Assembly (NCBI GenBank): GCA_943788505.1
Contig: CALSQR010000002.1
Coordinates: 633,213-697,212, forward strand
Source of the DNA: an uncultured bacterium
Lineage (GTDB): Bacteria; Bacteroidota; Rhodothermia; Rhodothermales; UBA10348
DNA length: 64,000 nt
Direction: 5' to 3'
Shown: piece after piece, positions 9,870 through 16,555 of the stretch
Layout: each line of letters begins with the position of its first letter
Numbering within the stretch: the stretch's first letter is position 1
Translations under genes and position numbers: made by a program
Notes under the pieces: model-generated
The model's input: the letters and a program-made list of their open reading frames with translations, nothing else
Databases searched by the model: none
Told to the model about the DNA's origin: nothing

Positions 9870-11580
9870 GCGACTCCTCGGAGTCAGACGCGCTTGCGTC
9901 ACTACTTGGAAACCTGATGGTAAACACCGATCCGTAACCGGGTTCGGACTGCATAGAAAGCTGACCGCCCAGTTCTTCTAAGAGTCCATTCGCGACTCGC
10001 AGCCCGAGTCCACTAGTTTTATCTAGTCCAAACTCTGCTAATGAAACGGTGTCCAATGGCTGATTAATACTCTCGACGAATCCGCTTTCAAAGCCTCGTC
10101 CTGTATCAGAAATGCGAATTACGACCTCCGACATTTCTGTTCGCATGTCGAACTGAATACTACCCCGTTCTGTGTAGCGGAATGAGTGATCTAGAAGGTG
10201 GGTCAAGGCATGGGCAAGGTGATTGGGGTCCAATTGGGCATACTTCGCCTCTGAAGGCAATGACATCCGAAATTCGAGTTCTTTCGTTGATGCTTCCCGC
10301 TCAAACTGAATGAGTACTTGCCGAGATAACTCAACCACGTCCGTCTTTTCTGTGTTCTGATCCAATTTGCCCGACGAGAGATGAGATACCGAAAGGATGC
10401 TATTGAGCAGTTTGAGCAGTCGATCTCCACTAGATCGGATCATTTCAGCAAGCTCCTGCTGGTCTCCTTCGCATTCCTCCACTAAGACATCAGCCAATCC
10501 TATAATACCGGATAGCGGTGTGCGGACATCATGACTCATATTAGAAAGGAATGCAGATTTTAAGCGTGAAAGCTCTTCGAGATGCCTTTTGGATTCAAGT
10601 ATCTGCAGCTCTGCCAATTTGCTTTCAGTAATGTCCCTCAGGAATATGAGCCGCCCTTGGGTGATTCCTTCATCACTCAATATGTGCTTCATTCGAAGGG
10701 CATACCACTTTGCTTCGGTGCTGGTAGTTAAATCTATTTCTGTCTCATAACCTGCTTTCTCCGCACCTGCGTTCCATTCCTGTGCTAAAAACGGGAAGCA
10801 TTCCTGAACCGGCATATCTATGATTTTTCCCCCTGTCTCTGACTTCATCGACCCGATCACCTCATTGGCCTCCATAATCAGGCCTCTTGGATCGGTCACG
10901 ATTACCCCATCATCCATATATCGAATGATCTGTTCTCGCGCGATCGGCATGAGATCTAGCATCCGATAGCGAAACATCCCGATAAAAAAGAAGACGCCAG
11001 ACAACGAAAATGAGATCGGAGTCAGATCAAGATGCAGAAAGAGATCTGGGTTGCTCAGATAGACCCCGTTAAAAAACATGGGCGTCAAAGATCCCAGCGT
11101 CATAATCAACGCTTGACTACGAATGTGTCCTTTAGATCTAAAAACATGACGCACGAATAACAGGACTCCAATTCCAACAAGGAGATAGGAATACAATGTG
11201 TGTACCCAGAACCATGGACCGTAGACACGGTCGATGGTCGCGAACTTGTCGGTAACCAATAGCTCTGAAAACTCGAAAAATAGATAGTGGGCGTCATTTG
11301 TTGCGATGAGACCTAACGTGACTACTGGCAATAATGAAATGATCATCAGCATTCGAGGCGTCAGTTTGATGCCAGTAAACGCACTCGCCAACGATAGCCA
11401 GGCAACGGGCAGAGCCGCCACGAAAATGAATTTGATATCGGATAACAGCAACTTGGCGTCAAATCCAGCGACTATCAAATGCAGACCTGAAAAGAGTGAC
11501 CAAAGCCCAGCCATCGACATAACAAACACAAACACGCGTGTAAAGGTACCACGATGACGGGTCCACGCGTGAATCACCAA
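9763..11580 (-). CDS. Membrane sensor histidine kinase (7TM-PAS-HisKA-HATPase)
   Basis: A 605-residue inner-membrane kinase. Seven hydrophobic helices fill residues 1-210, followed by a PAS domain (about 215-330), a short coiled coil, HisKA with phospho-acceptor His in SNMSHDVRTPL (about residue 348) and HATPase_c (about 440-560). G1 (ISDTGRGF) and G2 (GLGLRVANGLLEELGG) are good, but the N-box reads HLLDHSFRYT where NLLxNAxKYT is expected, so both Asn residues are missing and ATP/Mg binding may be altered. The last 45 residues (SSDASASDSEE onward) are low complexity and come from the antisense of dgcA. No response regulator is adjacent. Confidence 0.9.
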   Translation of the reverse strand: MVIHAWTRHRGTFTRVFVFVMSMAGLWSLFSGLHLIVAGFDAKLLLSDIKFIFVAALPVAWLSLASAFTGIKLTPRMLMIISLLPVVTLGLIATNDAHYLFFEFSELLVTDKFATIDRVYGPWFWVHTLYSYLLVGIGVLLFVRHVFRSKGHIRSQALIMTLGSLTPMFFNGVYLSNPDLFLHLDLTPISFSLSGVFFFIGMFRYRMLDLMPIAREQIIRYMDDGVIVTDPRGLIMEANEVIGSMKSETGGKIIDMPVQECFPFLAQEWNAGAEKAGYETEIDLTTSTEAKWYALRMKHILSDEGITQGRLIFLRDITESKLAELQILESKRHLEELSRLKSAFLSNMSHDVRTPLSGIIGLADVLVEECEGDQQELAEMIRSSGDRLLKLLNSILSVSHLSSGKLDQNTEKTDVVELSRQVLIQFEREASTKELEFRMSLPSEAKYAQLDPNHLAHALTHLLDHSFRYTERGSIQFDMRTEMSEVVIRISDTGRGFESGFVESINQPLDTVSLAEFGLDKTSGLGLRVANGLLEELGGQLSMQSEPGYGSVFTIRFPSSDASASDSEESLKSQEATNSTRGPAARSRQADRDHPRSQAAQTDHP

Positions 11581-13610: not shown

Positions 13611-13628
13611 TAGATTTGCTTAGATTTG
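13611..13628 (+). promoter_or_regulatory. Two TAnnTTTG -7-like elements upstream of the haem receptor gene
   Basis: TAGATTTG occurs at 13611-13618 and again at 13621-13628, matching the Bacteroidota -7 consensus TAnnTTTG. They lie 29-46 bp before the receptor ATG, a sensible position. No good TTG element was found about 20 bp upstream, so only one half of the consensus is supported. ATCGATCGAT just upstream is palindromic and could be an operator. Confidence 0.35.
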
Positions 13629-13656: not shown

Positions 13657-15825
13657 ATGAACAACAAAATAACGAACAAAAGGGCACAAAAGAGCACAAT
13701 TACTCAGTATTTGACCCAAAGCTCATTCGGCGTGGTTCGATGGTGCTTCCTTTTGGGGTGGCTTTGGTTTGTGTCATCATCTCCAGCAGCTTCAGCCCAA
13801 TCGACCGATCGCTCGGTGAAATCAGATTCACTTAAAAGCTATCAGTTACAGACCGTCGTAGTGACGGCCCTCAAGTCCCCTTCTGTACTCGAGGACACGC
13901 CTATCCCGATAAGGGTCTTGGGCAGAGAACAGATTCGCCAACGGGGAGCCCTGCGTCTTTCAGACTTATTGGCTGAAGAACCCGGACTCATGCTGACCCA
14001 CTTCTTGGGCACCGGTATCCAGATGCAGGGATTGGATCCAGATTACACCTTGATATTGCTGGATGGTCAGCCCTTGGTTGGCCGCTCAGGTGGCACGCTC
14101 GATTTGGACCGACTGTCAGTCTCGGACATTGCTTCCGTAGAAATTGTTCAGGGTCCCTCCTCTTCCCTGTACGGAAGCGATGCTCTGGCCGGTGTCATCA
14201 ACCTGCGATCACGGGAAGCGGAACGCCCATTTGGCGTGGATGCCGGAGTCCGGTACCAGACGCACAACACGAGCAATGTCAACGTCTCTTTGGAAGGGCG
14301 CGCCTCCAAAACAGGTTGGCGATTGAGTCTTGATCGATTTGCATCGGATGGGTACGACCTGAACCCGGATTTACCTGGACAAACTGGTCCTGCATTCGTC
14401 AAACAGACCGTCTCCAGCCGATGGACTTCAAGCTTGCACGACGCAGTTGATATCAATTTGTCAGCCCGCTTTGCTCACGAAAACCTTGACAGCGACCAGT
14501 CCATCGTACTGAATGGAATAGCGTCCGCGTTTCAGGAGCAACAAAGGCAGACAGATTGGAGTGTGGCTCCAGAGATGAAGTGGAGAATCCAGCCTGGCCA
14601 CTCTCTCACCCTTAAAGGCTATACCACAGGATTCCGAACACAGTCTTCAGTTTCCATCCCAGACGCAGAATCAGACTCCGACTTCAGACAGTCTCTTGGA
14701 CGTGTAGAAGTACAGCACGACCTGGTTGCGGGCAGCTTTTTCATCCTGACCTCTGGAGCCGGGCTGTCCCGGGAAACAGTTTCTGCAGATCGTATCGCGG
14801 GAGGGCATCGCAGCAACCAAACGGCTCACGCTTTCTCTTAGCAGCAATTTCTGTTGTCCGAATCAGTGCACCTGGTGACCAGCTTCCGGGCTGACCATCA
14901 CACCGAATATGGTTGGCACATGAGTCCGAATGCAGCGGTGATGTTTTCCGCCAAAAATACCATGAGGTTTAGACTTTCAGCCGGTACAGGCTTCAAAGCG
15001 CCGAGCTTTCAACAGCTCTACATGGATTTTACCAATGCTGTGGCCGGTTACTCGGTCATCGGATCAGCAGATGCTCAGTCAAATCTCAAGCGCCTGGAGG
15101 AAAATGGCCTCATCACCAGGTACTTGGGTAATCCTTCACTGCTCCAAACGGTCGGACCAGAAACTGCCGTGTCTTACCAAGCCAGTTTCGATTCTGATCT
15201 CGGCAAACGGGTACACCTGCATGTCGCCCTGTTCCACAACCGGATCGGCGATATGATAGAGACACTTCCAGTAGCCCAAAAAACGAATGGGCAACAAGTG
15301 TTTTCCTATCTGAATCTCAACCGGATTTCATCACGGGGGATGAGTTTCGAAACCAGGTTTAGACCAAGTGACCTGATATCCATCCAGGCAGGGTACCAGT
15401 TCGTCCAGGCCCGTGATTTGGACGTCCTCGACCAAATTGCTGCGGGAACCCTGTATGGTCGGCGTGATGGAGTGGACTATCTGCTGAAGCGATCAGATTA
15501 CGGTGGATTGTTCAACCGCAGTAAGCACTCCGGAACGCTTCAGCTCGCAGTTAGCACTCCCCAAGGCACCACAGATGTGCGGCTTCGAGCCACTGCCCGG
15601 TCCCGATACGGATTCGGAGATCAAAATGGCAATCTGGTTCTGGATGCATCAAATGAATACGTCCCGGCCCAGATGCTTTGGAATCTCACCATCAACAGGA
15701 AGCTTACTTCTCTGGCAAATCTGCAAGTCGGCGTGATCAATTTGTTCGATCGCATGAATGCAGAGCGGATTCCCTCTTTGTCAGGTCGCCAGGTTTTTGC
15801 CAGTGTCTTGTTTTCCTCTGAATAA
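13657..15825 (+). pseudogene. HmuR-like TonB-dependent haem receptor split by one in-frame TAG
   Basis: An N-terminal half (13657-14838) with signal peptide, TonB box region (QTVVVTALKSP), complete plug domain (REQIRQRGALRLSDLL to IVQGPSSSLYGSDALAGVINL) and the first barrel strands is followed by TAG (14839-14841). The frame then continues, with no shift, through the rest of the barrel to a proper aromatic-poor end at 15825. Length without the stop is about 722 residues, normal for the family. The stop falls in F-S-stop-Q-Q-F where related barrels commonly have FAQ; a single CAG to TAG change would explain it. The following hmuY-like gene points to haem. It may be a recent nonsense mutation, a sequencing error, or amber readthrough. 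Confidence 0.85.
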
Positions 15826-15872: not shown

Positions 15873-16499
15873 ATGAAACGTTCCTTCTTTATCTACGCTT
15901 TCTTTTGCCTGAGTGCAGGCCTCATTGCCGGGTGTGACAGTACTTCCCCGAATGGGGCTTCGGATCCTGTCGTCGCGGAACGCGCATCAGACATCCCCTC
16001 TGATCCCATCATCGGGTTGGGTGGCGATGGTCGACCCGTCGGGACCAATACGTTTACGTTTTTCAATGTGAGAACGGGCGACGTCGTTGCTCAAACAGAT
16101 TCTGCAACCACCAAATGGGATCTCGGATTTCGTGGTACGACGATCATTGTGAACGGGGGTACTTCCGGTCCTGGTAACGGGGCGGCAAAAATCGTCGAAG
16201 GAGTGTTCGCTGACATCACCGACGCTGTGGCTGACGACATGCAAACGGATTCGGAATCTGGCTATGCCATTCCAGTGGGTTCTGGTAATGGGTGGTACAA
16301 CTACAACCCTGCATTGCAAACCGTTTCCCCGGTTCCTGGAAGAGTGCTGATCATTCGAACCGCAGATGGTCGGTACGCCAAAGTATCCATTATCAGTTAC
16401 TACAAAGGCGCCCCAACCACTCCATCCGCAAGCGATGAGGCCCGCTACTTGACCTTTGATTATGCGTTTCAGCCCGATGGTAGCCTTCTATTTGAATAA
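15873..16499 (+). CDS. HmuY-family haem-binding lipoprotein
   Basis: A 208-residue lipoprotein (lipobox LIAGC at about residue 21). The mature part carries the HmuY pattern: TFTFFNVRTGDVV, TKWDLGFRGTTIIVNGGTS, a WYNYNP block, VLIIRTADGRYAKVSIISYYKG and YLTFDYAFQPDGS at the C-terminus. HmuY proteins capture haem at the cell surface and hand it to the HmuR TonB receptor, which is the gene 47 bp upstream. This gene is intact even though the receptor frame is interrupted. Haem ligation by His cannot be confirmed here. Confidence 0.88.
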   Translation: MKRSFFIYAFFCLSAGLIAGCDSTSPNGASDPVVAERASDIPSDPIIGLGGDGRPVGTNTFTFFNVRTGDVVAQTDSATTKWDLGFRGTTIIVNGGTSGPGNGAAKIVEGVFADITDAVADDMQTDSESGYAIPVGSGNGWYNYNPALQTVSPVPGRVLIIRTADGRYAKVSIISYYKGAPTTPSASDEARYLTFDYAFQPDGSLLFE

Positions 16500-16515: not shown

Positions 16516-16555
16516 CTGAACAGAGTCATCTCATGATTGGGATGACTCTGTTCGG
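16516..16555 (+). terminator. Hairpin after the hmuY-like gene
   Basis: GAACAGAGTCATC (16518-16530) pairs perfectly with GATGACTCTGTTC (16541-16553) around a 10-nt loop, 18 bp past the stop. No U-run follows, but the 13-bp perfect stem and position make it the likely end of the haem operon. Confidence 0.7.

Follow-up and report, generated by a model that had tools for sequence, protein, structure and literature searches.

A single amber codon interrupts the TonB-dependent receptor gene of an HmuR/HmuY-type locus in Rhodothermales: probably a recent nonsense pseudogene

The closest known haem uptake systems to the locus described here are HmuR/HmuY of Porphyromonas gingivalis, encoded by a bicistronic hmuY-hmuR unit, and HfpR/HfpY of Flavobacterium psychrophilum (PMC9331221). 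As in both systems, a TonB-dependent receptor with Plug and barrel adjoins an HmuY-family gene in the window, which is the whole stretch of 64,000 nucleotides analysed. Unlike the P. gingivalis unit, the receptor gene here precedes hmuY. Furthermore, in contrast to HmuR/HmuY and HfpR/HfpY, the receptor is interrupted, haem is only its presumed ligand, and the NPNL-like box is not conserved across its relatives; in the same check of the FRAP/NPNL motifs, KAP (as FKAP or YKAP) was invariant. The literature on HmuY/HfpY systems supplied this background and nothing on this locus was found in it. The features of the locus are as follows.

13611..13628, forward strand: upstream of the receptor ORF, two TAGATTTG boxes (13611-13618 and 13621-13628) as candidate -7 promoter elements of the Bacteroidota type
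13657..14841, forward strand: 5' part of the receptor, from the N-terminal region through the Plug domain to about the tenth barrel strand, where the TAG ends it
14839..14841, forward strand: in-frame amber codon TAG replacing an invariant glutamine (frame reading, alignment)
14842..15825, forward strand: 3' part of the receptor, with the remaining barrel, in unchanged frame and free of further lesions
15873..16499, forward strand: intact HmuY-family protein of 208 aa (44.7 bits with Pfam PF14064, whose cut-off is 27)
16516..16555, forward strand: hairpin with an 18-bp stem directly 3' of hmuY (-33.4 kcal/mol, z -4.75)

The first ORF encodes 394 aa, and the TAG is codon 395 of a 722-codon TonB-dependent receptor ORF, which when read through the TAG gives 722 residues in one frame with no other stop. 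In the read-through protein Pfam matched Plug at residues 78-180 and the TonB_dep_Rec barrel at 348-696, the barrel match spanning codon 395. The two ORFs around the TAG are thus not a chance arrangement. The earlier note, made from the sequence, had described a single amber codon splitting a receptor gene with intact plug and barrel above an undamaged HmuY gene, and each of these points was borne out: the frame is identical on both sides, no second stop occurs, both domains are matched, and hmuY, which starts 47 bp downstream of the receptor ORF, is open and scores above the Pfam cut-off.

An AlphaFold model of the receptor (mean pLDDT 83.8, pTM 0.84) was closest to Cir and BtuB, and the haem receptors PhuR, ChuA and ShuA were matched too; Pfam and the model together identify a TonB-dependent receptor with a Plug and a 22-strand barrel. 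In the model, codon 395 falls within the strand at 384-399, about the tenth of the 22 barrel strands. The 394-residue product would therefore retain the plug together with less than half of the strands of the barrel. It would lack the C-terminal strand needed by barrel proteins for assembly, and assembly would be expected to fail. Because the rest of the barrel and the last strand are missing, the truncated receptor is predicted to be null, its function lost. Translation of the downstream part could resume only from an internal start, for example the in-frame TTG at 14854, four codons past the stop, and the resulting protein would carry no signal peptide.

To place the interruption among relatives, 60 related genomes, probably of the order Rhodothermales, were searched. 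Receptor matches were found in 38 genomes including this one, and in all the other 37 the receptor was uninterrupted. The column of the stop was occupied by glutamine in 24 of 24 aligned relatives (36-52% identical), so the earlier guess that this site normally holds glutamine was correct; a true gene boundary at this position was also looked for in the relatives, and none has one. The gene order receptor, hmuY and a 240-residue membrane protein was found in several relatives, and a MerR-like gene and mnmA lie on the opposite side of several of their loci, the same as in the window. Two congeners, G004 and G005 (about 96-97% complete), have neither the receptor nor a close HmuY and retain solely the distant HmuY paralogue. 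Since the HmuY-linked locus is absent from both, it is dispensable in the genus, and the interruption marks it as such. A scan of named genomes returned distant relatives only.

The name "haem receptor" given in the earlier note calls for qualification. An hmuY gene lies next to the receptor, as expected for an HmuR-type receptor, and hmuY orthologues adjoin the receptor in relatives as well. The score against the curated haem-receptor model (TIGR01785, TonB-hemin), however, was 130.9 bits, far under the cut-off of 316.85. Among solved structures, those nearest this HmuY were two hypothetical lipoproteins, followed by P. gingivalis HmuY. Haem would be the ligand judging from the adjacent hmuY and from family scores that are weak, and HmuR/HmuY-type is used here as a working label for the locus rather than as a demonstrated function.

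As expected of a nonsense pseudogene, the receptor is cut short by an in-frame stop at a point where the frame continues uninterrupted in relatives. Identity to the relative L003 was 52.2% both before and after the stop, and to L004 51.6% before and 54.0% after it, while the branch leading to the interrupted receptor (0.58) was no longer than those of its sisters (0.56-0.63). Because identity is alike on both sides of the stop and the branch is not lengthened, decay has not accumulated, and the lesion looks recent. The best reading, and probably the right one, is a nonsense pseudogene of recent origin, whether fixed or polymorphic. It agrees with the fresh loss of function offered among the meanings in the earlier note, given the single lesion, the intact relatives, the unlengthened branch and the two nearly complete congeners without the locus. 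The mutation looks like an ordinary recent loss of function, with sequencing error less likely. The locus would be an HmuR/HmuY-type uptake system for haem or an iron chelate whose TonB-dependent receptor was recently inactivated: a conserved glutamine codon presumably became TAG by a single-base change, and RF1, which is intact in a genome where no suppressor tRNA was found, would terminate translation there. HmuY is still encoded intact, and its expression may be lower through polarity.

The main rival is a base-calling, consensus or strain-mixture error, in which case the real or majority sequence would have a sense codon and an intact receptor; this is unlikely. The genome is on two contigs, is 96.9% complete and has no 16S gene, which fits a metagenome-type assembly, and apart from the stop the receptor is without any lesion. 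In this assembly (G000) no 16S rRNA match was obtained and no tRNA-Ile(GAT) or tRNA-Ala(TGC) was found, suggesting that an rRNA operon is missing; the assembly is incomplete because the 16S gene is missing. The normal tRNA-Cys has, about 11 kb away, a second and weakly scoring tRNA-Cys-like counterpart (30.8 bits; L064, G000:C2:1099651-1099719). Further single-stop genes could also point to error, and they were searched for in a sample of 864 kb (31% of the genome) as same-frame ORF pairs, from which natural boundaries were removed by eye and in which the main candidates were checked by family or homologue. Codon-usage log-odds was rejected as a detector of split genes, being too weak: the known receptor case fell outside its top 40. 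Besides the receptor, four genes split by a single stop were found, three by TAG and one by TAA.

L080:10849-12129, reverse strand: outer-membrane-type protein, split by TAG
L085:1568-2671, reverse strand: histidine kinase, split by TAG
L073:8419-9954, reverse strand: ComM/YifB ATPase, split by TAG
L089, forward strand: response-regulator receiver domain, split by TAA at 11131

Against error, the 16 TonB receptor genes of the genome (696-1017 codons) have no truncated frames, and ABC domains above E 1e-20 contain no stops. Because these receptor and ABC-domain frames are intact, the assembly is not riddled with errors. Compared by eye, the stretches surrounding the five stops share no obvious motif that would hint at a systematic miscall. 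The set resembles the single-nonsense pseudogenes of bacterial genomes, with a single early stop interrupting a gene that is open elsewhere, intact relatives and several cases in a genome; compared with these, nothing here is distinctive. The presence of the other split genes alongside the receptor also favours the pseudogene reading. As a separate observation, comM of a congeneric species (L146, G006:C16:6574-8619) is interrupted by a TAG elsewhere in the gene, following VIG; because the TAG positions differ, comM appears to have been broken independently in the two congeneric species.

Quite improbable is a further reading in which the amber codon, as a leaky stop or a standing polymorphism, keeps some of the population from making the receptor while HmuY is still made. 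If it were true, the stop could, for example, block the entry of phage or bacteriocin via the receptor.

Amber suppression or natural readthrough would have the TAG decoded as glutamine at useful levels, so that the full receptor is made. The residue replaced by TAG is a conserved glutamine, and TAG is the stop in four of the five nonsense-split genes. As in TAG-recoded or amber-suppressing genomes, the TAG lies inside a coding frame. However, from the codon usage here TAG is expected in 40-44% of random nonsense changes, so that four in five is unremarkable (probability about 0.10). Two of the checks proposed in the earlier note, for a suppressor tRNA-CTA and for other conserved in-frame TAGs, were both run. 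No CTA-anticodon tRNA was found among 38 tRNAs (covariance model, anticodons by ARAGORN) in an assembly about 97% complete, and other in-frame TAGs were found that have no shared residue in relatives: at the TAG of the outer-membrane-type protein 10 of 11 relatives have Tyr and one has Phe, and at those of the histidine kinase and ComM the relatives have no fixed residue, compared with Gln at the receptor. Since the residues differ between sites, one shared decoding of TAG does not fit. Unlike TAG-recoded genomes, this one encodes an intact, open RF1 with PAT and GGQ motifs (RF2, with SPF and GGQ, is also present and open), and TAG serves as a terminator: it ends 165 of the 713 chosen ORFs of at least 100 codons in the 864 kb sample, about a fifth, including some ahead of clear gene starts, e.g., just before recG. 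In addition, 15 of the 16 TonB receptors are without a stop. Readthrough is thus very unlikely. A TAG at a conserved glutamine together with other TAG-split genes invites a claim of recoding; tRNA content, RF1, terminator use and the identity of relatives' residues argue against that claim and guard against over-reading.

Two further readings are hardly credible. Reversible on/off variation of the receptor within the population, a possibility raised in the earlier note, draws on the fact that phase variation commonly targets surface receptors and on a 10-bp tandem repeat of 2.4 copies at the 5' end of the receptor ORF (13676-13699); that repeat, however, leaves the frame open, the lesion is of substitution type, and a search at the stop found neither a repeat, tandem or inverted, nor a slippery tract or an invertible segment. 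Separate translation of the two halves, which would assemble into one split receptor, could use the TTG at 14854, but the second part would lack a signal peptide, a boundary at this site occurs in none of the relatives, and in the model the stop lies inside a barrel strand. All three readings, recoding of TAG, phase variation and the split receptor, were considered and rejected on the evidence given for each.

As for the flanks, the position of the TAGATTTG boxes is suggestive of -7 promoter elements and statistically weak, the pattern TANNTTTG having three matches in L001 against 1.55 expected by chance. The hairpin behind hmuY is a possible transcript end and is not followed by a U tract. 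Elsewhere, matching 60-residue HmuY remnants were observed in two genomes of one genus (L147, G053:C57; L148, G043:C47); the hit in each contains one or two TAGs, and both were read as decayed fragments.
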